Source: Neoarius graeffei
Taxonomy: Eukaryota > Chordata > Actinopteri > Siluriformes > Ariidae
Assembly: GCF_027579695.1 (NCBI RefSeq)
Contig: NC_083587.1
Coordinates: forward strand, 53,444,521-53,508,520
Reading direction: 5' to 3'
DNA length: 64,000 nucleotides
The translations under genes were made by a program, and so were the position numbers. Under the pieces are notes generated by a model. The model did no database searches. It was not told where the DNA came from and saw only the letters and a program-made list of their open reading frames with translations. Positions 47,201-61,301 of this stretch are shown here, in pieces (the first letter of the stretch is position 1; every line of letters begins with the position of its first letter).

Positions 47201-50200
47201 TGCTTTCACTCTTGATAAGACAGAGTTGTTTTTGCCAATCATAACATTGCAGTTGTCACTGCTGAATCCTATGCAATTAGACCATTCAAGGCCTTTTTCA
47301 TGCATGGATGATGCAATGCAGTTGAATATATTTTCAGCTTTGGCATCATTGCACACTTGCATATCCACAAATCTAACTGTCACCTTATCCTGTGCTTCAC
47401 TGTAGTACCTGACTAAAATAGCACATTCTTTCTCACACATGATGTCATTGCTTTCATCAACCAAAATACTGTATGGCCTTTTTTCTGCCCGGATTAATTT
47501 GTATACATCCTCTGAACATTCAGGTTCCAGTGCCAGGTTCATCACAGCTGCTGTCTTAGTGGAGGAGCAGGCATAATTTCTTGCTATTTCCGAGTCTGGA
47601 AACATTTTCCTAAATAACTTGCCAGTGTAGAAGGTCCTGGGTTCGAGCCCCATGGCCGGCGAGGGCCTTTCTGTGCGGAGTTTGCATGTTCTCCCCGTGT
47701 CCGCGTGGGTTTCCTCCGGGTGCTCCGGTTTCCCCCACAGTCCAAAGACATGCAGGTTAGGTTAACTGGTGACTCTAAATTGACCATAGGTGTGAATGTG
47801 AGTGTGAATGGTTGTCTGTGTCTATGTGTCAGCCCTGTGATGACCTGGCGACTTGTCCAGGGTGTACCCCGCCTTTCACCCGTAGTCAGCTGGGATAGGC
47901 TCCAGCTTGCCTGCGACCCTGTAGAAGGATAAAGCGGCTACAGATAATGAGATGAGATGAGATATTTATGTAAACTGGGCGGCATGGTGGTGTAGTGGTT
48001 AGAGCTGTCGCCTCACAGCAAGAAGGTCCGGGTTGGAGCCCCGTGGCCGGCGAGGGCCTTTCTGTGTGGAGTTTGCATGTTCTCCCCGTGTCCGCGTGGG
48101 TTTCCTCCGGGTGCTCTGGTTTCCCCTACAGTCCAAAGACATGCAGGTTAGGTTAACTGGTGACTCTAAATTGACCGTAGGTGTGAATGTGAGTGTGAAT
48201 GGTTGTCTGTGTCTATGTGTCAGCCCTGTGATGACCTGGCGACTTGTCCAGGGTGTACCCCGCCTTTCGCCCGTAGTCAGCTGGGATAGGCTCCAGCTTG
48301 CCTGCGACCCTGTAGAAGGATAAAGCGGCTACAGATAATGAGATGAGATGAGATGAATTAAAATTCCAAAAAACGATAGTTACACTAATGCAGATCATCG
48401 CCACCTCATGCATCATCAAAATTTGTCACACGGACCCCTTTCCCATGTCACAACGTCACTGCCGGGGTCAGCGTATGGTCAACGTGACTGCATATATTTT
48501 ATATGGGGGTGCCTTGAGAATTTGCATACTTCTGAAGGGTGCCGTGACTGAAAAAAGGTTGAGAAACGCTGCTTTAATAAACAGTAAGAGATTAGTTTTT
48601 GTTCAGCTATTTTGTGTATACACCCATTGTGATATGATGTGATGTGATTGTAAGGTATTAATTATCACCTCATAGTGGGAACATTGGATGCCTCTTGCGA
48701 CGGCAGCACATACACTAAAATTGGAATGATACAGAAAAGGTTTGCATGACCTTTGTACAAGGATGACACGTAAAGTCGTGAAGTGTATGTCGCATTGCTG
48801 TTTTGATTATAACTGTTGCTACAACAAAGAGAAACCCAGCATCCTGTCTGACTCAGCGTGTCTACTGTCTCTCTGCAGGGGATCTAAAGTGAAACACTGC
48901 AGCAGCTGCAACAAGTGCATTGCAGATTTTGACCACCACTGCAAATGGCTCAACAACTGTGTAGGAAGTAGGAACTACTGGTAAATATCTGGAACAAAAA
49001 AATATCCTTTTGCAAGAGAAATCATTGTAAATCTAGTTTGCAGTGTTTCCTACAGATCCTGTGTTTTCTGTCCCCAGGCTATTTTTTGTGACTGTGCTTT
49101 CAGCTGTTTGTGGAACGTTCCTCCTCATCCTGGTCATCTTATTTGTTTTTATCGAACATTTTGTGAATCCTGCGACTCTTCGTACAGCAGCAGCTTTTCA
49201 AGGTGAAAACGTGACTCACCCTGTTAACCTGTGCCCTGATCAGTCCCTCATACCTTATACGCAATTTGGTGTTACACCTCATTTGTACACTGTAAAATCC
49301 GATAAGGTCACTGAGCTCAAAAATTTTATTGAATCTCATCTCATCTCATTATCTGTAGCCGCTTTATCCTGTTCTACAGGGTCGCAGGCAAGCTGGAGCC
49401 TATCCCAGCTGACTACGGGCGAGAGGCGGGGTACACCCTGGACAAGTCGCCAGGTCATCACAGGGCTGACACATAGACACAGACAACCATTCACACTCAC
49501 ATTCACACCTACGGTCAATTTAGAGTCACCAGTTAACCTAACCTGCATGTCTTTGGACTGTGGGGGAAACCGGAGCACCCGGAGGAAACCCACGCGGACA
49601 CGGGGAGAACATGCAAACTCCACACAGAAAGGCCCTCGCCGGCCACGGGACTCGAACCCGGACCTTCTTGCTGTGAGGCGACAGCGCTAACCACTACACC
49701 ACCGTGCCGCCCCTTTTATTGAAACCGATTACGTAAAAATTTTTGAGGTAAGTAACTTAAATTTTTTAAGGTAAGATTTCTTAAAAATTACACTATAGTT
49801 ACACTTAATTGTAATTTTTAAGAAATCTTACCTTAAAAAAATTTAAGTTACTTACCTCAAAAATTTTTACGTAATCGGTTTCAATAAAATTTTTGAGCTC
49901 AGTGACCTTATCGGGTTTTACAGTGTATGTTGCGTTCCAAATAAGAATAAAGTAGATTCAGCAGAACACTCCTGACACTCCCTAGCCAATAAAATGAAAG
50001 CCAGTAGATTCAGAGTCCAGTTTAACAAACCTAAAAACTTTGGCGACATGGTTTTAAATATTAACAAATTCGTTGTCATGTTAACATGCACAGTATTGTT
50101 AAAAATGGGCTGCTCTTATTCACTGATTAATACCCAACAGTAAGGACCCTGGCTTATTAACCCTTTATGGTTGTGAGATTTGCCGGTTAAGCTTGGCAAG

Positions 50201-53200
50201 ATCCGAATAATTTTTGGTGGACCTTACAGTTTGAACTTCAATTATTCAGTTAGAAGTCATGTCAATTATTCCACGTGCACTAAAAGGGATTCTTGGGAGG
50301 CGTCAGTACAGTGCATTCATTTATGATAACGGAAATAGGAACAGGTGACAAATTTAAAAGAAAAATACATAGAGGCTGTGCGGCACGGTGGTGTAGTGGT
50401 TAGCGCTGTCGCCTCACAGCAAGAAGGTCCGGGTTCGAGCGCCGTGGCCGACGAGGGCCTTTCTGTGCGGAGTTTGCATGTTCTCCCCGTGTCCGCGTGG
50501 GTTTCCTCCGGGTGCTCCGGTTTCCCCCACAGTCCAAAGACATGCAGGTTAGGTTAACTGGTGACTCTAAATTGACCGTGAGTGTGAATGGTTGTCTGTG
50601 TCTATGTGTCAGCCCTGTGATGACCTGGCGACTTGTCCAGGGTGTACCCCGCCTTTCGTCCGTAGTCAGCTGGGATAGGCTCCAGCTTGCCTGTGACCCT
50701 GTAGAAGGATAAAGTGGCTAGAGATAATGAGATGAGATGAGATGACATAGAGGCTGTGACTAAAGTCACAGTAGTTTACGCTAGCTGTTACAAACCGGGA
50801 CGTCTGGTCACTGTACCCGATAGATCCGGAACGGTAAGCGATAGAGAATGACGCTTAGTGAGGAAAAGTTGCGCCCTGCCGCCCTGAACAAAATAAAACA
50901 AGCGTGCTCTGAGTGCACAATATCCCCTGCTACAATATATTGCAAACGAAATTGCAGTATGTGTATTACCGTCCTGTAACAAAACCTTCTGCCAAGTTGC
51001 GTGAAATTCCTCCAAAAATTGTGAGAGGAGTTGATTTCAGAAGGTGAGAACCCTTTCCTGGGATGGACGGACGGACGGACATCACCATGACTTAATCCCC
51101 CTTCTGGCCTTTCGGCCAGCAGGGCATTAAAAACTGATTGAAAAAATCATGAAAATTGACAGAGTTATAAGTGATTGAAAAAAATCCCGTTTTTCATGGA
51201 TCATTCCAGACAGAGGTGGACAAAGTACCCAACTTCATTACTTAAGTCAAAGTACAGATGCCACTGGTCAAATGTTACTCCGATACAAGTGAAAGTTGTC
51301 CAGTCAATTTTTTACTAAAGTTAAAGTACTGAAGTACTTGCTTTTAAAAATACTTAAGTATTAAAAGTACATTTTCTGTCAATGCGTCGTTGTATTATTG
51401 CCACAACGCTTACAAAACCTAATGCCGTTACCAAAGACAGAAATGTGAATTCACAAAATGAACGCATGCTGTGCCATCATGGTGGTTTAACGTTAAGCTA
51501 GCTAGTCAGTGAAACTCCACCTGACATGCTAGCAAACTCTTTTCAAACTCAAAATCATATTGGGTAGCTAATGCTACTAGAAAATAAACATTTCTACATT
51601 GTTTATTTGGCAAGATTATGCTAAAACATATTTCTGAAAGGACTTCAGATAAGTTAACGTTATTCATCTTAGCATAACACTGTTTTTACATGCTAACTAA
51701 CAGTGTCCAAGTTAACTAGCTATGTGTTAACGTTAGCCGTGGACAAGGTGATGGCAACTTGGCGGGCAAATCCATAGAAAGTCATTTGACTAACCAGACT
51801 GCATAGCTACATTTGCAACATTATCGCTGGCTCTAAAAGCACAGACAACTTCATTGCAAGCTTTCTCTTGGAATAAAACATTTATATACCTCAATATGCT
51901 TCCGCAGGTCGGGCGGTGAGTTTTTGTAGGCCGTGATGTGGTTCATTTTCAGCAAACATTTAAAACGAAACGTGTCTTTATTCCTTTCAGAAAACTGAAA
52001 CATGGGTTCTAGGTATGGCCATGAGTGTGTGCATTCCCCAGAAGAACCGCCTCCTTCCATTCTGACATCAACTGATCGTGTTCAAATAATGCTATTGAGA
52101 AATAATTGAGCTTGATTTTATCCAGTCTATGGACATGACATGAGTCTAGTGATTACTGATAGGCTCTCAGTGTCACCTGCAAAAAAAAATCATGTTTTAG
52201 AAAAGAAAAGAAAAAACATCCACTTTCAAAGCCGCTTCATAGTAACGAGTAACGAAGACCTTGATAGAAATGTAGTGGAGTAAAAGTACGATATTTGTCT
52301 TTCAAATGTAGTGAAGTTAAAGTCATAAGTCCAAAAAAAATAATACTCAAGTAAAGTACAGATACTCAAAAAGTGTACTTAAGTACAGTACTCAAGTAAA
52401 TGTACTTCGTTATTGTCCACCTCTGAGTCCAGATCAGTGATCCAGATCACCACCAAAAGTCATAGCAACGTAATTCAGCCCCAGAGGTATTCTTCATGTG
52501 AAATTTGGTGATGATTGGTTGAAAACTGAGGCAGAAATAGCGTCCTAAAAACATTAGAAGAAGAAGAAGAAAAGTAGAAAGATCCTGAATGAGAGTAACA
52601 ATTTGCACCGGCGCTCCTAGCGCAAATTAAAAAGAGATTGCACCCAAAATAGCACAAAAACAAAACTCACGGCGTGTTATTAAAGGTTAATGTGCCTAAC
52701 AGTGTTTGAATAATGCTCAAAATCACGTTCTATTATCAGAATTAATATTTTCTTGTGTTATTAATTATGAAATGAATGTATGATTAAGTGTTACTCTGTA
52801 ATTTCTCTACACAGCTGTGAATGAGAGCACGACGTGGTTAGTGTTCCTGCCCGTAGCACCAGTACAGACCAGTTCTGCCAGTCTCCTCGTGTTGGCTGGC
52901 ATCACTGTCATCATTGCATTTGCCTCATTCGTACTGCTGTGCCACTTACTGATCTTCCATATATACCTGTGTGAGTGCACATGTCCCAGGATTTCAGGCT
53001 CACCCAGTCATTTGCTTACTCTAAGTCATTAAATTAAATGAGGTAGGGATCTATTTAGTCATTTACAACCCCGATTCCAAAAAAGTTGGGACAAAGTGCA
53101 TATTGTAAATAAAAACAGAATGCAATAATTTACAAATCTCAAAAACTGATATTGTATTCACAATAGAACATAGACAACATATCAAATGTCGAAAGTGAGA

Positions 53201-55895
53201 CATTTTGAAATTTCATGCCAAATATTGGCTCATTTGAAATTTCATGACAGCAACACATCTCAAAGAAGTTGGGACAGGGGCAATAAGAGGCTGGAAAAGT
53301 TAAAGGTACAAAAAAGGAACAGCTGGAGGACCAAATTGCAACTCATTAGGTCAATTGGCAATAGGTCATTAACATGACTGGGTATAAAAAGAGCATCTTG
53401 TAGTGGCAGCGGCTCTCAGAAGTAAAGATGGGAAGAGGATCACCAATCCCCCTAATTCTGCGCCGGCAAATAGTGGAGCAATATCAGAAAGGAGTTCGAC
53501 AGTGTAAAATTGCAAAGAGTTTGAACATATCATCATCTACAGTGCATAATATCATCAAAAGATTCAGAGAATCTGGAAGAATCTCTGTGCGTAAGGGTCA
53601 AGGCCGGAAAACCATACTGGGTGCCCGTGATCTTCAGGCCCTTAGACGGCACTGCATCACATACAGGCATGCTTCTGTATTGGAAATCACAAAATGGGCT
53701 CAGGAATATTTCCAGAGAACATTATCTGTGAACACAATTCACCGTGCCATCCGCCGTTGCCAGCTAAAACTCTATAGTTCAAAGAAGAAGCCGTATCTAA
53801 ACGTGATCCAGAAGCGCAGACGTCTTCTCTGGGCCAAGGCTCATTTAAAATGGACTGTGGCAAAGTGGAAAACTGTTCTGTAGTCAGACGAATCAAAATT
53901 TGAAGTTCTTTATGGAAATCAGGGACGCCGTGTCATTCAGACTAAAGAGGAGAAGGACGACCCAAGTTGTTATCAGCGCTCAGTTCAGAAGCCTGCATCT
54001 CTGACGGTATGGGGTTGCATTAGTGCGTGTGGCATGGGCAGCTTACACATCTGGAAAGACACCATCAATGCTGAAAGGTATATCCAGGTTGTAGAGCAAC
54101 ATATGCTCCCATCCAGACGACGTCTCTTTCAGGGAAGACCTTGCATTTTCCAACATGACAATGCCAAACCACATACTGCATCAATTACAGCATCATGGCT
54201 GCGTAGAAGAAGGGTCCGGGTACTGAACTGGCCAGCCTGCAGTCCAGCTCTTTCACCCATAGAAAACATTTGGCGCATCATAAAAGGGAAGATACGACAA
54301 AAAAGACCTAAGACAGTTGAGCAACTAGAATCCTACATTAGACAAGAATGGGTTAACATTCCTATCCCTAAACTTGAGCAACTTGTCTCCTCAGTCCCCA
54401 GACGTTTACAGACTGTTGTAAAGAGAAAAGGGGATGTCTCACAGTGGTAAACATGGCCTTGTCCCAACTTTTTTGAGATGTGTTGTTGTCATGAAATTTA
54501 AAATCACCTAATTTTTCTCTTTAAATGATACATTTTCTCAGTTTAAACATTTGATATGTCATCTATGTTCTATTCTGAATAAAATATGGAATTTTGAAAC
54601 TTCCACATCATTGCATTCCGTTTTTATTTACAATTTGTACTTTGTCCCAACTTTTTTGGAATCAGGGTTGTAGAATGTTATTTTTTGCCAAAGGAAATGT
54701 ATATTGACTTATACTTAATATATACTGTGTCCATAATAAATTGAAAACATGTACACTGGGCTTACTAATAATAATAATAAGGAGAAGACAAAACAAAATA
54801 ATTTGTTTTCATGCATGATGCTCTTTCTTTGATATACAGTATGCGTGTACCCATCAGCATTACCACATAGGCCATATTTTCCTGTAAGAAACCTTTGAGT
54901 CTGCGACCCACTTTCCATATTAGATCATTGTTTCCTGTCTTCATTACAAAATTATCTGCCTGGTGAATACTTTTCTCCTTTTACTTAATCATGCTGCTTG
55001 TTACCCCTCACTGGCCACTTTAATAGGAATAGGATTCTAAGATTCCTGTTCTTGGCTGGCAGGACCGGAACCCGATGTGTTCTTCTGCTGTTGCATGCTG
55101 AGATGCTTTTCTGCTCACCACGGTTGTAAAGAGTTGCTATGAGTTACTATATCCTTCCTGGCAGCTCGAACCAATCTGACCATTTTCCTCTGACCTCTCT
55201 TATCAACAAGGCATTTGTTTCCACCCACATTGAGAACTGTCGCTCACTCACTCAATGTTTTTTGTTTTTCACACCATTCTGTCTGTGTAAACTCTAGAGA
55301 CTGTTGTGTGTGAAAACCCCAAGAGATTAGCATTTTCTGAAATACTCAAATAAACCAGTCCATCTGGCTCAAACCAACACCCATGCCACAGTGAAAGGAG
55401 GTCACACTTTGAGATCACAATTTTTCCCATTCTGATGTTTGAAGTGAACAGTAACTGAAGCTCTTAATTTGTATCTGCATGATTTGATGCGTTGTGCTGC
55501 TGTCAAGGGATCGGCTGATTAGAGAGCTGCATAAAACAGCAGGGTGTTCCTAATAAAGTGGCTGGGCAGTATATACCTGATGTGGTTGTATGTTCTTTAG
55601 CACAAGTCTAAATCTTGTTTTGTCTGTTTTGTTAATTTTTTTTTCAATGTCTTTGTTTACTGCGTTTCCTCGACTGATGCTCCAAATACTTTTGAACCGT
55701 TCAAGCAAAAAGAAATAATTCCTCAAAAATAATCAGTAACCAGAACCTGGATATTTCTTTTGCCTAGCAATGTCAGAGAAGTTAAAAGCACAAAGCTTTG
55801 ACCACATCTGGATTAAATAGGATTTATTTTTCAAGATGATGTATATAGTAAAGTCTTTGGACTGTAATCTACAGAAATACAGTATTTTTTCTTAA

Positions 55896-55935
<40 letters not shown>

Positions 55936-58900
55936 GTATATAAAGGCATGAGCACGTATGAGTACATAATGAAGCAGCGGCACCTACAGAGCTCCAGGCA
56001 GCAGGAGCAAAGAGCCACACAGCCGTCCTCCTCGAACCAAGCTGCACCTCAGGTACAGTGGTATGCAAAAGTTTGGGCACCCCTGGTCAAAATTGCTGTT
56101 ACTGTGAACAGTTAAGCAAGTTGAAGATGAAATGATCTCCAAAAGGCATAAAGTTAAAGACGACTCATTCCCTTTATATTTTAAGCAAAAGCAATTTTTT
56201 ATTTTCATCTTTAACATTTTCAAAATGACAAAAAAGGAAAAGGGCCCGAAGCAAAAATTTGGGCACCCTGCATGGTTAGTACCTAGTAACACCCACTTTG
56301 GCAAGTATCACAGCTTGTAAACACTTTTTGTAGCCAGCTAATGATCTTTCAGTTCTTACCTGGAGGATTTTCACACATTCGTCCTTGCAAAAGGCTTCCA
56401 GTTCGACAAGTTTCTTGGGCTGTCTTGCATGCACTGCTCTTTTGAGATCTATCCACAGATTTTCAATGATGTTTAGGTCAGGGGACTGTGAGGGCCAGGG
56501 CAAAACCTTCAGCTTGCGCCTCTTGAGGTGTTCCATTGTAGATTTTGAGGTGTGTTTTGGATCATCGTCTTATTGTAGGACCCGTCCTCTTTTTAACTTC
56601 AACTTTTTTACAGATGGTGTGATGTTTGCTTCCAGAATTTGCTGGTATTTATTCGAATCCATGCTTCCCTCGACCAGTGAAATGTGCCCTGTGCCACTGG
56701 CTGCAACACAACCCCAAAGCATGATTGATCCACACCCGTGCTTCAGAGTTGGAGAGGTGTTCTTTTCCTGGAATTTGGCACCCTTTTTTCTCCAAACATA
56801 CCTTTGCACATTGTGGCCAAAAAGTTCTATTTTGATTTCATCAGTCCACAGGACTTGTTTCCAAAATGCATCAGGCTTATTTAGATGTTCATTTGCAAAC
56901 TTCAGACACTGGATTTTGTGGCTCGGACGCAGGAAAGGTTTTCTTCTGATGACTCTTCCATGAAGGTCATATTTGTTCAGGTGTCGCTGCATAGTAGAAC
57001 AGTGCACCACCACTCCAGGGTCTGCTAAATCTTTCTGAAGGTCTTTTACAGTCAAACAGGGGTTTTTATTTGCCTTTCTAGCAATCCAACGAGCAGTTCT
57101 TTCAGAAAGTTTTCTTCATCTTCCAGACCTCACCTTGATCTCCACTGTTTCTGTTAACTGCCATTTCTTAATAACATTACAATCTGAAGAAACAGCTACC
57201 TGAAAACACTTTGCTACGTTCTTGTAGCTTCTCCTGCTTTGTGAGCATCAATTATTTTATTATTCAGAATGCGAGGGAGTTGCTTAGAGGAGCCCATGGC
57301 TGTTGATTTTAGGGACAAGTTTGAGGTGTCAGAGAATTTATACAGCTTTGAAATCTGCATCATCTGACCTTTCCTAACCAAGAATTTGAACAAGCCACAG
57401 CTCAATAAGCTAATTAAGGTCTGGAACCTTGGTAAAAGTTACCTGAGAACTCAAATGTATTGGGGTGCCCAAACTTTCACATGGTGTTCCTTTTCTTTTT
57501 TCACTCTCCAATTGTCCAAAACAAAAATAATACACAAATCTTGCAGAAAACGCTGAAACGAAATGTCTCGTCTTTACCTTTATGCCTTTTGGTGATCAGT
57601 TCATCTTCTGCTCACTCAACTATTCACAGTAACACACATTTTCAGTAAGGGTGCCCAAACTTTTGCATGCCTCTGTAACATCATCAAGCCACATCTGAGA
57701 TTTCATAACATCACGTTTCTTTATTACTCTCACCCTCGACCTTCAGGCTCTGGGAGCTCATCTAAATACGGTGTAACATTCTAACGTTTTAACCCTCTGG
57801 TTGTGTCCCATTGCTCCTGGTCAACTCAGATTATATATCAAAATACAATACATTGCATTTCAAACAATCTCAATGGAATTGGAAATCAATGATGGAGGAA
57901 AGTGAAATACATGGATCGCGCTCCAATTTACTACTTCACTACGTGTTCACTACAGAACCTGAGCCAAGTGCACTCGGTTTCATGTTGGATTCATATTGTT
58001 CCATTCTTCAAAGATAAATAAGCTAAACTAAACTAATTTACTGCATTATAACCTGATTCTGTTTTTTTTTTCCGTCTATGGATCATATTTTAGTCTGAGT
58101 TTCGTCGATGGTATCGTGGCCCTGCCCTGTACTATGATACTAATGACATTTATTTTTCTTCTCTCAGAACCTTGGACAATTTGAGATGCCTCTAGGGTGT
58201 GATGCACCAGTGTCCAGCAATTCAAGGTAACTTTCAGCGTATTCATGACCAGAAGTGGACAGTAACGAAGTGCATTTACTTGAGTACTGTACTTAAGTAC
58301 ACTTTTTGAATATCTGTACTTTACTTGAGCATTATTTTTTTGGGAAACTTATTACTTTAACGTCACTACATTTGAAAGACAAATATCGTACTTTTTACTC
58401 CACTACATTTCTATCAAGGTCTTCGTTACTCATTACTATGAAGTGGCTTTCAAAGTGGATGTTTTTTTCTTTTCTTTTTTAAAACATGACTGTTTTTTTT
58501 CGCAGGCGACACTGAGACAGCTGATCAGTAATCACTAGGGTCACGTCACGTCCATAGACTGTATAAAATCAAGTTCAGTGATTTCTCCGCAGCATTATTT
58601 AACATGATCAGTTGATGTCAGAATGGAAGGAGGCTGTTCTTCTGGGGAATGCACGCACTCATGGCTTTACCTAGAACCCATGTTTCAGTTTTCTGAAAGG
58701 ATTAAAGATTCATTTCATTTTAAATGTTTGCTTTGTTTGCCGAAAATGAACCACATCACGGCCTACAAAAACTCGCCATCCAACCTGTGGAAGCATATCG
58801 AGGTATAAACGTTTTATTCCAAGAGAAAGCTTGCAACGAAGTTGTCTGTGCTTTTAGAGCTAGCGATAACATTGCAATAGCTATGCAGTCTGGTTAGTCA

Positions 58901-60394
58901 CATGACTTTCTATGGATTTGCCCGCCAAGTTGCCATCGCCTTGTCCACGGCTAACGTTAACACATAGCTAGTTAACTTGGACACTGTTAGTTAGCATGTA
59001 AAAACGGAGTTACGCTAACATGAATAATGTTAACTTATCTGAAGTCCTTTCAGAAATACGTTTTAGCATAATCTTGCCAAATAAACAATGTAGAAATGTT
59101 TATTTTCTAGTAGCGTTAGCTACCCAATATGATTTCAAGTTTGAAGAGAGTTTGCTAGCATGTCAGGTGGAGTTTCACTGACTAGCTAGCTTAACGTTAA
59201 ACCACCATGACGGCACAGCATGCGTTCATTTTGTGAATTCACATTTCTGTCTTTGGTAACGGCATTAGGTTTTGTAAGCGTTGTGGCAATAATACAATGA
59301 TGCGTTGACAGAAAATGTACTTTTAATACTTAAGTATTTTTAAAAGCAAGTACTTCAGTACTTTAACTTAAGTAAAAAATTGACTGGACAACTTTCACTT
59401 GTATCGGAGTAACATTTGACCAGTGCCATCTGTACTTTGACTTAAGTAATGAAGTTGGGTACTTTGTCCACCTCTGTTCATGAGAAAACCTAAGGGTTTA
59501 TACGGTCACCGGCCACTTTAATAGGAACACCCATCCATCCGCCTGCTGTTTTATGCAGTTATCTCATCAGGCGATCCCTTGCCATCAACACGATGCATCA
59601 AATCATGCAGATACAAATCAAGAGCTTCAGTTAATGTTCACTTCAAACATTAAAATGGGAAAAATTGTAATCTCAAAGTGTGACTTTCTTTCACTTGGTG
59701 CCAGATGGACTAGTTTGAGTATTTCAGAAAATGCTGATCTCCTGGGGTTTTCACACACAATAGTCTCTAGAGTTTACACAGAATGGTGCGAAAAACAAAA
59801 AACACTGAGTGAGTGACAGTTCTCAAAACAAACGCCTTGTTGATAAGAGAGGTCAGAGGAAAATGGTCAGATTGGTTCAAGCTGCCAGGAAGGATATAGT
59901 AACTCATAGCAACTCTTTACAACCGTGGTGAGCAGAAAAGCATCTCAGCATGCAACAGCAGAAGAACACATTGGGTTCCAGTCCTGCCAGCCAAGAACAG
60001 GAATCTTAGAATCAAGAACGAGTTCCTATTAAAGTGGCCAGGGAGTGTATGTAACTCTAAAACGTGTATTATGACTGAATCCCTTTTAAAGATTAATTAA
60101 TGTGACTGGTCAGAATGTGATTAATACGACTGATGAGTGTAACTGCATCATAAAATATAAGAGCCAGTTGTGTTGCAGTATGCAGAAGAGTATATTAAAT
60201 TCTGGGGCATGTTGAATTCCATATTGCTATAATTTGGTTATTAAGGGAAAAGGCATATTTTTTCCTGTTGTCTAATGATGTTTTATTTTTATAAATATTC
60301 CGTGAATATGTTTTTCCCTCTCTTTAGTATCTTCAAGTACCAAGACAGAGGACAATCAACTGTCTCACAAAACATCTGTTCTAAGGTTCATTAA
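35027..60394 (+). CDS. zdhhc11: zdhhc11, DHHC-type palmitoyltransferase (8 exons, first exon not found)
   Basis: This is a protein S-acyltransferase. DHHC enzymes autoacylate the motif cysteine and pass palmitate to substrate cysteines on Golgi/ER membranes (family knowledge). In the 341-residue model TM1 is about 40-63, TM2 75-95, the Cys-rich zinc domain 127-162 with catalytic DHHC at 152-155, TM3 169-196 and TM4 231-255. A TTxE-type motif (STYE) is at 267-270, then a polar tail. The start [10 protein letters not shown] and the segment LLIFHIYL are shared with ZDHHC11/ZDHHC1. Position just downstream of brd9 on the same strand favours zdhhc11. Exons: 35027-35248, 37004-37182, 48879-48980, 49078-49202, 52815-52970, 55937-56052, 58168-58226, 60328-60394; phases join to 342 codons. 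No in-frame ATG exists at the left end, so an upstream coding exon is missing. The C-terminus is the least certain part. Confidence 0.88.
35316..36502. mobile_element. hAT-type non-autonomous element, second family, copy 1
   Basis: 8-bp flanks gtttcagt / ctttcagt (7 of 8 match). Ends cagtggtgaactg and cggttcccctttg. A second copy is at 61302-63718. SINE copy 20 lies inside. Confidence 0.7.
36018..36381 (-). mobile_element. V-SINE type A (copy 20)
   Basis: Inside the hAT-type element; target duplication ttagaagagaat on both sides. Confidence 0.9.
36503..37003. other. zdhhc11 intron, no feature
   Basis: Short CA run at 36690-36700; otherwise nothing recognised before exon B. Confidence 0.5.
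37004..37182 (+). CDS. zdhhc11: zdhhc11 exon B: TM2, DPAD and start of the Cys-rich domain
   Basis: The acceptor is tctcccag and the donor gtatgt. There are 59 codons plus GT, completed by G of the next exon. Hydrophobic [17 protein letters not shown] is followed by [19 protein letters not shown] and the first zinc-binding pair HCSLC. Confidence 0.92.
37842..39456 (-). mobile_element. Tc1-type element, full length
   Basis: Both ends are cagtggtgcttgaaagtttg in inverted order, flanked by TA (37840-37841 and 39457-39458). 1615 bases, inserted into the subrepeat element. Carries one broken transposase gene on the - strand. Confidence 0.92.
38062..39084 (-). pseudogene. Tc1 transposase with stop and catalytic Glu lost
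   Basis: Reads 341 codons from ATG at 39084 to TGA at 38062-38064 with one internal TGA. The N-terminus has two helix-turn-helix units ([17 protein letters not shown] and the [10 protein letters not shown] region) with [11 protein letters not shown] between. Catalytic Asp blocks are present ([23 protein letters not shown]). The third acidic residue, normally Glu in PIE.LW of DD34E enzymes, is Lys here (NPIKMLWKD). The TGA follows DPK, and the usual tail continues in the same frame ([22 protein letters not shown]). Dead copy. Confidence 0.9.
39925..40501. other. zdhhc11 intron, dispersed-repeat-like sequence
   Basis: Resembles a widespread fish repeat (cagagtttagggtcatgaa, gggttatactgcttcagtag); may be a retroelement 3' region. 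No gene. Confidence 0.4.
40502..41009. mobile_element. second copy of the tattctatccac element
   Basis: Left end ttattctatccacattcact and right end gtgaacgtggatagaataa match the outer ends of the palindrome at 7990-8692, but the interior right arm differs. Confidence 0.7.
41010..41119. mobile_element. small palindrome acagttattccac
   Basis: About 110 bases, inverted around the tagcc...ggcta middle; starts acagttattccac and ends gtggaataactgt. The same module lies in the loop of the element at 7990-8692. Confidence 0.7.
41120..41718. other. zdhhc11 intron, no gene
   Basis: Probably the continuation of the dispersed repeat before 40502; no open frame of interest. Confidence 0.4.
41719..42092 (-). 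mobile_element. V-SINE type A (copy 21)
   Basis: Full length; target duplication atacatgtccat on both sides. Confidence 0.92.
42192..43286. mobile_element. TIR element ctgtgtc(t/c)gaaatc
   Basis: Ends ctgtgtctgaaatcactcac and gtgagtgatttcggacacag are inverted, with repeated tcactactcactat motifs. SINE copy 22 sits inside. No matching target duplication was found. Confidence 0.65.
42600..42972 (+). mobile_element. V-SINE type A (copy 22)
   Basis: Sub-lineage with taatggatgg tail; target duplication atgtcttattc / atgtcttgttc. Confidence 0.9.
43486..43511 (+). repeat. (TAAA)n microsatellite
   Basis: About six TAAA units, just before SINE copy 23. Confidence 0.85.
43533..43899 (+). mobile_element. 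V-SINE type A (copy 23)
   Basis: Target duplication gtcagaatct / gtcagaacct; small deletion before gttgtctgtgtggg. Confidence 0.9.
43925..44190 (-). pseudogene. LINE reverse transcriptase C-terminal fragment
   Basis: The - strand reading has [17 protein letters not shown], then [16 protein letters not shown] and a SFGGR..AYAGPKL block, as at the end of many fish non-LTR ORF2 proteins. 5'-truncated, as usual for LINEs. Confidence 0.6.
45549..45909 (+). mobile_element. V-SINE type A (copy 24)
   Basis: Inside the hAT transposase; target duplication ctgtgtgacac on both sides. Confidence 0.92.
46242..47149 (-). mobile_element. Tc1-type MITE, copy 3, with SINE inside
   Basis: TA...TA flanks and cactaccgttcaaaagtttg termini. 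Interrupted by SINE copy 25 (46700-47065), whose target duplication is aacttatggtggt. Confidence 0.92.
46700..47065 (+). mobile_element. V-SINE type A (copy 25)
   Basis: Full-length SINE nested in the MITE, which is nested in the hAT, which is nested in the zdhhc11 intron. Confidence 0.92.
47629..47963 (+). mobile_element. V-SINE type A, 5'-truncated (copy 26)
   Basis: Begins inside the tRNA-like head at agaaggtcctggg, after the A box; the rest is complete. Confidence 0.9.
47978..48356 (+). mobile_element. V-SINE type A (copy 27)
   Basis: Complete copy 15 bases after copy 26, both inside the hAT element. Confidence 0.9.
48687..48791 (+). pseudogene. U6 spliceosomal snRNA pseudogene
   Basis: cggcagcacatacactaaaa, ttggaatgatacaga, gtttgcatgacc and aaggatgacacg follow U6 snRNA through most of its length. 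There are changes in conserved places (e.g. gacctttgtacaagg for the normal ggcccctgcgcaagg), and no clean U-tract terminator. It is most likely an old retro-copy. It lies about 90 bases upstream of zdhhc11 exon C. Confidence 0.82.
48879..48980 (+). CDS. zdhhc11: zdhhc11 exon C: DHHC catalytic motif
   Basis: The acceptor is ctctgcag and the donor gtaaat. The exon encodes KHCSSCNKC, then [18 protein letters not shown], the full DHHC-CRD signature with the catalytic Cys and all expected zinc ligands. The upstream intron is 11.7 kb, swollen by nested transposons. Confidence 0.97.
49078..49202 (+). CDS. zdhhc11: zdhhc11 exon D: TM3
   Basis: The acceptor is tccccag and the donor gtgaaa. A strongly hydrophobic stretch ([19 protein letters not shown]) is followed by FVNPATLRT, matching the family motif VNP..LRT. 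An open frame continues past the donor into a palindromic element and a SINE and is not coding. Confidence 0.92.
49288..49925. mobile_element. palindromic Tc1-type MITE with TA target
   Basis: Ends cactgtaaaatccgataagg and its complement, TA outside on both sides (49286-49287 and 49926-49927). Arms are near-perfect inverted copies centred near 49795. SINE copy 28 interrupts the left arm. Confidence 0.85.
49334..49712 (-). mobile_element. V-SINE type A (copy 28)
   Basis: Target duplication ttttattgaa on both sides. It extends an open frame from exon D by chance. Confidence 0.92.
49928..50378. other. zdhhc11 intron, no feature
   Basis: Nothing recognised. Confidence 0.5.
50379..50743 (+). mobile_element. 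V-SINE type A (copy 29)
   Basis: Target duplication acatagaggctgtg on both sides. Confidence 0.92.
50990..51128 (-). repeat. inverted piece of the 177-180 bp subrepeat family
   Basis: gtgaaattcctccaaaaatt, gagttgatttcagaaggtga, ggacggacggacggaca and ctggcctttcggccagcagg are the reverse complement of the leader and first unit at 37229. Confidence 0.8.
51211..52425 (+). mobile_element. hAT-type non-autonomous element, copy 2
   Basis: 8-bp flanks attccaga / agtccaga. Ends cagaggtggacaaagtaccc and tattgtccacctctg. On the - strand about 51880-52060 an N-terminal transposase exon remains ([17 protein letters not shown], then [20 protein letters not shown]), a BED-like finger. Confidence 0.82.
52426..52814. 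other. zdhhc11 intron before exon E
   Basis: Has a (GAA)n-like run at 52558-52572; no gene. Confidence 0.5.
52815..52970 (+). CDS. zdhhc11: zdhhc11 exon E: luminal loop end and TM4
   Basis: The acceptor is ctacacag and the donor gtgagt. The exon encodes [14 protein letters not shown] (family TW.LFLPL.PVQ) and then the TM4 helix ending HLLIFHIYL, a hallmark of ZDHHC1/11. Phase is consistent with exons D and F. Confidence 0.94.
53066..54670 (+). mobile_element. Tc1-type element, full length, one nonsense codon
   Basis: Ends caaccccgattccaaaaaag and cttttttggaatcagggttg, TA outside on both sides. 1605 bases in the intron after zdhhc11 exon E. Confidence 0.93.
53428..54450 (+). pseudogene. Tc1 transposase with a single amber codon
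   Basis: 341 codons from ATG to TAA, uninterrupted except for TAG at 53881-53883, where the family has Trp (VL-W-SDESKFE). Order: helix-turn-helix [20 protein letters not shown] and [20 protein letters not shown], basic linker, catalytic [15 protein letters not shown] and SPIENIW (D, D, E all present). The C-terminus ends [19 protein letters not shown]. Dead as it stands, though only lightly damaged. Confidence 0.9.
54671..55003. other. zdhhc11 intron, no feature
   Basis: A (TAA)n stretch at about 54765-54782; otherwise nothing. Confidence 0.5.
55004..55570 (-). mobile_element. Tc1/mariner-type relic, copy A
   Basis: Ends cactggccactttaatagga and cctaataaagtggctgggc are inverted. Inside are eroded traces of a transposase helix-turn-helix region on the - strand. 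A second copy is at 59507-60047. Confidence 0.78.
55899..55932 (+). repeat. zdhhc11: (CT)n microsatellite forming the exon F polypyrimidine tract
   Basis: About 17 CT units end four bases before the ctgtag acceptor's AG, so the repeat itself is the polypyrimidine tract of zdhhc11 exon F. Confidence 0.9.
55937..56052 (+). CDS. zdhhc11: zdhhc11 exon F: TTxE-type motif and start of the tail
   Basis: The acceptor ctgtag is preceded by a long (CT)n tract. The exon encodes [14 protein letters not shown], with the STYE motif that follows TM4 in DHHC enzymes, then a Gln/Ser-rich polar stretch. It ends CAG|gta, and a Tc1 element starts three bases into the intron. Confidence 0.9.
56056..57675 (-). 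mobile_element. Tc1-type element sitting in the exon F splice donor
   Basis: Ends cagtggtatgcaaaagtttg and caaacttttgcatgcctctg, TA outside (56054-56055 and 57676-57677). 1620 bases. The left TA is bases +2/+3 of the intron after zdhhc11 exon F. Confidence 0.93.
56276..57297 (-). pseudogene. Tc1 transposase with at least two stops
   Basis: From [20 protein letters not shown] at 57297 through [15 protein letters not shown] and [16 protein letters not shown] regions. Catalytic [19 protein letters not shown] and IIENLW are present, ending GVTRY at 56276. Stops interrupt it after about codon 59 (RSGR-stop) and just before DDDPKH (RVLQ-stop). Confidence 0.88.
57678..58167. other. zdhhc11 intron before exon G
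   Basis: No repeat or gene recognised. Confidence 0.5.
58168..58226 (+). CDS. zdhhc11: zdhhc11 exon G: C-terminal tail
   Basis: The acceptor is tctctcag and the donor gtaact. Only one frame is open, encoding [19 protein letters not shown], and it is the frame set by exon F. The tail is poorly conserved in the family, so support comes from splice sites and phase. Confidence 0.7.
58250..59476 (-). mobile_element. hAT-type non-autonomous element, copy 3
   Basis: 8-bp flanks ttcatgac / ttcatgag. Ends cagaagtggacagtaacg and tttgtccacctctg. Inverted relative to copy 2. On the + strand about 58623-58808 the N-terminal exon is better kept ([19 protein letters not shown], then NLWKHIE). Confidence 0.83.
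59507..60047 (+). mobile_element. Tc1/mariner-type relic, copy B
   Basis: Ends caccggccactttaatagga and tcctattaaagtggccaggg. The + strand reading has [20 protein letters not shown], a transposase helix-turn-helix remnant. Confidence 0.8.
60048..60327. other. zdhhc11 intron before the last exon
   Basis: Nothing recognised. Confidence 0.5.
60328..60394 (+). CDS. zdhhc11: zdhhc11 putative terminal exon
   Basis: The acceptor tctttag follows a pyrimidine tract. In the frame set by exon G it reads [11 protein letters not shown] and stops at TAA 60392-60394. The +2 frame stays open much longer (to about 60488). A further exon-like segment follows at 60466-60541 (tctcacag ... ccag|gtaggg), so the real C-terminus could differ. 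No poly(A) signal is obvious nearby. Confidence 0.45.
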
Positions 60395-60541: not shown

Positions 60542-60623
60542 GTAGGGCTCATTCATTCTTTTGTTCATAAAAGTTAACATCCCATGAGTAGTATGATTTA
60601 TTTAGTTATGATTTACCCAAAAG

Positions 60624-60999
60624 GGCGGCACGGTGGTGTAGTGGTTAGCGCTGTCGCCTCACAGCAAGAAGGTCCGGGTTCGAGCCCCGTGGCCGACGAG
60701 GGCCTTTCTGTGCGGAGTTTGCATGTTCTCCCCGTGTCCGTGTGGGTTTCCTCCGGGTGCTCCGGTTTCCCCCACAGTCCAAAGACATGCAGGTTAGGTT
60801 AACTGGTGACTAAATTGACCGTAGGTGTGAATGTGAGTGTGAATGGTTGTCTGTGTCTATGTGTCAGCCCTGTGATGACCTGGCGACTTGTCCAGGGTGT
60901 ACCCCGCCTTTCGCCCGTAGTCAGCTGGGATAGGCTCCAGCTTGCCTGCGACCCTGTAGAACAGGATAAAGCGGCTAGAGATAATGAGATGAGATGAGA
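60624..60999 (+). mobile_element. V-SINE type A (copy 30)
   Basis: Target duplication atttacccaaaa on both sides; full length, downstream of zdhhc11. Confidence 0.92.
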
Positions 61000-61301
61000 T
61001 TTACCCAAAACAAATTAGACAGAATTCAAGTTAGGCAGTGCTGAGCAGTTGTTCCTGTAAAACTTAAACACTGATCTAAATATTTACAGCCACAGCACAT
61101 AGGATCCTTTGGATAATACTCTAAAAACAAACAATGCTAAATCAGATGAAAAAAAATACTCTAAAACATGATGTTCCTAAGCTGCTGTGACAATCCTGTA
61201 ACAGTAAATTCACAAAGTCAGTGCTGTCAGGCTCGATCTGGTGGAAATTTTCAAATATTCACATCATACTTCATCAAGCTCAGATACTGTATATCCTACA
61301 T
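61000..61301. other. no feature
   Basis: AT-rich; nothing recognised. Confidence 0.5.

Follow-up and report, generated by a model that had tools for sequence, protein, structure and literature searches.

A Tc1-like transposon at the +2/+3 TA of the exon F donor of a zdhhc11-like gene in Neoarius graeffei, and the predicted use of its terminal repeat as part of a 5′ splice site

Introduction

When a transposon inserts within a 5′ splice site, the question arises of what remains of that site and whether the host exon can still be joined through it. Such a case is found in the fish Neoarius graeffei, in which a Tc1-like element is inserted at the TA that forms positions +2 and +3 of the exon F donor in a zdhhc11-like gene, called zdhhc11 below. 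The terminal inverted repeats (TIRs) of Tc1-like elements typically start with CAGT. As insertion of the Tc1 type duplicates the TA and the TIR starts in this way, the host retains CAG/GUA (the slash marks the end of the exon) and the element supplies the donor from +4 onward. The window in which this locus was studied is a stretch of 64,000 nt of the forward strand of contig NC_083587.1, and positions refer to its first base unless the contig of the paralogue (C28) is given (Table 1).

Table 1. Features of the zdhhc11 locus, of the inserted element and of the paralogue
Feature	Position	Strand	Remarks
Exon C	48879..48980	+	DHHC motif
Exon D	49078..49202	+	Donor GTGAAA
Exon E	52815..52970	+	Donor GTGAGT
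Exon F	55937..56052	+	Ends ...NQAAPQ; first 2 bases belong to a split codon, end in phase 0; basis, paralogue phase
Exon G	58168..58226	+	Starts in phase 0; preceded by TTCTCTCAG
Exon H	60328..60394	+	Contains the stop codon
Present 5′ splice site, intron side	56053..56058	+	GTA from host, CAG from TIR
Target-site duplication, left TA	56054..56055	+	Donor +2/+3
Target-site duplication, right TA	57676..57677	+	ACATC beyond is the probable former +4 onward
Tc1-like DNA transposon	56056..57675	-	1,620 bp; transposase remnants on minus strand
Left TIR	56056..56175	+	Begins CAGTGGTATGCAAAAG
Right TIR	57556..57675	-	
Transposase piece, HTH_Tnp_Tc3_2 (PF01498)	56570..57115	-	Profile match, 1.3e-17
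Transposase piece, end of DDE_3 (PF13358)	56276..56569	-	Profile match, 2.8e-10
Nearest cryptic donor in TIR, GTG/GTATGC	56061..56062	+	Adds 8 nt; TGA at junction, protein ends ...PQVQ
TAA ending the frame upon intron retention	56113..56115	+	
zdhhc1-like paralogue (L057/L058)	C28:44526862-44531586		
Exon F homologue of paralogue	C28:44531465-44531586		Motif LSTYEYIVRQR in common with exon F

The host gene and its repeats

The part of zdhhc11 considered here, exons C to H, forms a single open frame with AG/GT at the junctions, which carries little information, since at a divergence of 1.6-1.8% exons this short would seldom have gained a stop. Exon C matches the DHHC domain profile PF01529 at 2.9e-14, and the tail encoded by exons E to H reaches 2.4e-5 and 24.8 bits against the same profile, under the curated 28.7. 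The name zdhhc11 is that of the first-pass annotation and is retained provisionally, given that another gene, on C28, resembles zdhhc1.

Several repeats lie around these exons. A CT microsatellite (55900-55936) forms the pyrimidine tract of the exon F 3′ splice site, where variation in its length may matter; with the TIR at the donor, repeat sequence takes part in the splice sites at either end of the exon. Another repeat is present in two opposite copies (51210-52425 and 58250-59477), which share 600 nt at 97% as well as shorter arms at 84-94% and flank exons E, F and G. Opposite repeats in this arrangement might promote circularization of E-F-G or the formation of long double-stranded RNA. 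The intron between exons E and F holds a second Tc1-like element (53064-54672; arms of 219 nt, 82%), in which two adjoining open stretches in the same frame, split by one stop, match the HTH and DDE_3 domains. SINE-like copies at 49332-49716, 50380-50706 and 60619-61001 lie in both orientations around the gene, and the likeness of their arms (96-99%) suggests that they were recently active.

The insertion site and the former donor

Exon F ends with ...CCTCAG, its last base being 56052, and is followed by G56053, T56054 and A56055. Directly after this GTA the left end of the element begins, and the right TIR closes with ...CATGCCTCTG, beyond which stand the second TA and then ACATC. The first-pass annotation had placed the insertion on the +2/+3 TA of the exon F donor, and the TIRs, the TA on both sides and the flanks bear this out to the base. 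The present donor, CAG/GTACAG, is likewise read directly, and its wider RNA form is CAG/GUACAGUGG. When the element and one TA are taken away, the former donor is reconstructed as CAG/GTAACATC (CAG/GTAACA), so that the ancestral site proposed by the same annotation is probably the right one.

The end of exon F was compared with that of the zdhhc1-like paralogue, located by a protein search of the same genome through the exon E homologue of the C28 gene. The corresponding exon of the paralogue has 40 codons (38 in exon F). It opens with two bases of a codon shared with the exon before it, and a phase 0 end is available at AAG/GTGAAC, a donor chosen by eye among ten GT in a comparison confined to this exon. 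These phases are those of exon F, and CAG/GT is therefore the expected old donor; the placing of the exon end at 56052 is supported to the extent that such phases, read by eye, can support it. An empty site was also sought in the same genome, where exon F and the flank on the 3′ side of the element each match their own place only, by a DNA search that skips common words.

The Tc1-like element and its copies

The element has the TA duplication, the CAGT-type TIRs and the HTH and DDE transposase domains by which Tc1-like elements are recognised, and its transposase frames are broken. Its inverted arms, counted with the TA (56054-56175 and 57556-57677), are 122 nt long and 82% complementary. The left TIR starts with CAGTGG; the right one reads CAGAGG in the zdhhc11 copy, as against CAGTGG in most other copies.

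At least 39 further long copies, with 95-97% identity, occur in the 2.34-Gb genome; this count is a lower bound, as scoring covered 40 of the 3,286 first-look candidates and yielded the zdhhc11 copy and 39 others. Of the 39 copies, 32 have a TA at the expected left end, 29 at the right end and 25 at both, and where it is missing the end is truncated, shifted or mutated. Relatives were also looked for on viral contigs, with seven pattern matches and none confirmed, and the letters of the TIR matched no paper in the literature searched.

The zdhhc11 copy differs from the majority of its 39 nearest copies by 1.79% (1.57% outside CpG), which gives a rough estimate of age because these copies were chosen for nearness. 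Rates for fish put 1.79% at a few million years. This bears on whether the insertion could be private to the one fish sequenced, heterozygous in it, or the product of a join in the assembly, and so have no weight for the species. Although the insertion is known from one assembly alone, the target-site duplication and both ends of the element are intact, and a divergence close to the median of the other copies (1.66%) argues that this copy is not brand new, so that we consider such an explanation very improbable.

Strength of the present donor

The first-pass annotation had proposed that both donors be scored with splice-site models, and the outcome depends on the model, the two signs being opposed. 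By a human weight matrix the donor falls from 3.23 bits in its former state to 0.57 in its present one, and 56053 ranks seventh of the 115 GT that lie between the first base of exon F and the 3′ splice site. In a model of the duplex with U1, by contrast, the energy goes from -8.1 to -9.5 kcal/mol, a slight strengthening, and the same site ranks first of the 115. On this scale the donors of exons C, E and G lie at -5.3, -6.6 and -6.5, and that of the paralogue's exon F homologue at -6.9.

The gain in duplex energy arises because CAGT at the tip of the TIR gives GUA(C)AGU, which can pair with U1 if the C at +4 bulges. In this modelled register the A, G and U of the TIR would stand in for the consensus +4 to +6, with one extra pair beyond, and a change of AGU in the model weakens the duplex to -7.8. 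Such pairing is not special to the TIR, since 17.1% of the 4,096 hexamers placed after CAG/GTA reach -9.5 or better, while 54% equal the former donor. Bulge registers have been described for natural donors, where they are linked with more alternative donor choice (PMC9311317).

Accessibility of the donor was estimated with a folding model as the mean probability of being unpaired over positions -3 to +8. For the former donor it was 0.54 in three lengths of transcript, and for the present donor 0.36, 0.32, 0.18, 0.26 and 0.27 in growing transcripts and 0.19 in the whole intron. The two TIRs, whose pairing the first-pass annotation had not taken into account, are predicted to form a duplex of -140 kcal/mol, with its base at the donor itself.

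Predicted splicing of exon F

We estimate, with a probability of roughly 0.55, that the present site is still the main donor of exon F, with some leakage. CAG/GUA would retain six U1 pairs, and the A-G-U of the TIR would replace the consensus +4 to +6 with the +4 C bulged out. Some loss of splicing would be expected from the weaker match to the matrix, the lengthening of the intron from 493 to 2,115 nt, the lower predicted accessibility and the hairpin at the donor. Where mis-splicing takes place, it would yield proteins without the last two exons. Among six modelled outcomes canonical joining alone keeps the C-terminus, and the other five end early: intron retention and a donor at 56550 give an identical protein end, skipping of exon F gives ...HIYL with the stop right after the last hydrophobic segment, and the donor at 55956 and the cryptic donor in the TIR (Table 1) also shorten the product. 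The plus strand of the intron contains no poly(A) hexamer of the form AATAAA or ATTAAA.

It could also be that the insertion largely breaks the donor, with exon F skipped, the intron kept in the RNA or splicing shifted to 56061, so that the zdhhc11 protein is truncated or its RNA lost to nonsense-mediated decay. The fall of 2.7 bits in matrix score and the lower predicted accessibility fit with this, as does the order of sites by matrix, in which 56061 scores 1.78 against 0.57 and five more GT outscore 56053. However, 56061 pairs poorly with U1 (-4.2), CAG/GUA is intact, and no second defect was seen across exons C to H, although there has been little time for one to arise. We regard a broken donor as unlikely, though it should be taken seriously. 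The hairpin might instead dominate, hiding the donor or being edited by ADAR once the right arm is transcribed, so that splicing would hinge on U1 having bound earlier, in kinetic competition. A duplex of such strength that starts at the donor speaks for this, but accessibility is already 0.18-0.36 without the right arm, against 0.19 with it. With access to the donor already low ahead of that arm, the hairpin itself makes little difference in the folding model, and folding of 2 kb of RNA is unreliable; a dominant hairpin is thus improbable.

In cells of nematodes and humans, DNA transposons are reported to undergo a hairpin-dependent 'SOS splicing'. Such a process would cut the element from the RNA, after which the former CAG/GUAACA would be used. 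A long TIR hairpin whose base is the donor would suit it, but it is unnecessary for an element inside an intron, and the phrase is absent among the literature matches listed. We see only a very slight chance that it operates here, and return to continued use of the present donor as the reading that we prefer.

Excision and the choice of target

Excision of the element had been expected by the first-pass annotation either to restore or to alter the donor. Sleeping Beauty has TACAGTA and TACTGTA as its consensus footprints (PMC4378557), and the footprint of zebrafish ZB consists of zero to three bases (PMC7913693). Since the usual footprints leave CAG or CTG, only precise excision, with a zero footprint, would restore the donor, and as a rule excision would alter it again. 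Alteration thus agrees with the known footprints, and restoration holds for the zero-footprint case only. With TACAGTA at the zdhhc11 site the modelled U1 energy is -10.0 kcal/mol, and with TACTGTA it is -8.6. Because the transposase frames of the element are broken, excision would require the action of a different copy.

In the window TA occurs 60.7 times per kb, and CAGGTA 28 times over both strands of the 64 kb. In the 32 of 39 copies with a left TA, found with a query that lacked the left flank, the preceding base is A in 22, G in 5, T in 3 and C in 2. The share of G is near that in the window, where G precedes 21% of TA, so that GTA donors are hit occasionally and by chance. Any element with TA as its target will now and then land on the TA of such a donor, and no enrichment is claimed.

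A second search used the junction itself as query, which biases the set to GTA; 40 of 321 candidates were scored, and 30 became loci and were read. Among these GGTA precedes the element at 13 and CAGGTA at four, namely the zdhhc11 site, L061, L067 and L079. Targeting of donors by the element was considered and is not indicated, as CAGGTA with the TIR also stands at the latter three without evident coding sequence. Open frames in the 159 nt that precede each of them, inspected by eye, show no evident coding exon, L067 having an open tail of 45 residues. If transcribed, these three sites are possible new donors.

Relation to known systems and significance

Element ends or target-site duplications that serve as splice sites are already known, from introners and from Tc1 of Caenorhabditis elegans. 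Rushforth and Anderson reportedly described in 1996 that Tc1 insertions of C. elegans are spliced from host RNA, the element sitting in exons. The likeness to zdhhc11 lies in a Tc1-type element that leaves the host RNA through splice sites at the element or close to it; the difference is that those insertions are reportedly exonic, whereas at zdhhc11 a true donor is concerned and the old 3′ splice site stays. PMC4120734 cites the Tc1 splicing work in connection with cryptic sites that become active when a transposon inserts in a coding region.

Introners, too, are DNA elements that supply a 5′ splice site, or share one, through their target-site duplication (PMC9860276), but they make new introns, whereas the zdhhc11 element landed in an existing one. 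The intron extends 492 nt past the right end of the element, to 58167, so that the element is not itself the intron, and the intron phase matches that of the paralogue, read by eye. Natural donors that use a U1 bulge register have one bulged base, as in the proposed GUA(C)AGU, and differ in that the bulged site at zdhhc11, which is proposed from a model, would derive from a transposon end (PMC9311317 for natural donors). In [D1,2] stwintrons an inserted piece also splits a donor, but these are introns within introns, split between donor bases 1 and 2, whereas the zdhhc11 donor holds a transposon after +3 (PMC12403724 for stwintrons). No report of a Tc1 TIR that completes a vertebrate donor through a U1 bulge is present among the literature matches listed, which cover few subscription papers.

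The zdhhc11 locus amounts to a natural experiment in one gene and at one donor, in which three letters of the host remain and a transposon end has taken the place of the others. A position matrix and a U1 duplex that allows bulges predict opposite changes for it, and this donor therefore separates the two ways of scoring. Tentatively, and with more doubt than confidence, we suggest that Tc1-like ends may act as portable half-donors: insertion in GTA makes GUA(C)AGU, so that insertions into GTA donors, as well as TACAGTA footprints, would be partly self-repairing. RNA counts at the zdhhc11 donor could test the idea of self-repairing Tc1 insertions. If it holds, genomes in which such elements abound would be expected to retain more insertions in the TA of donors than in other TA that are equally constrained.
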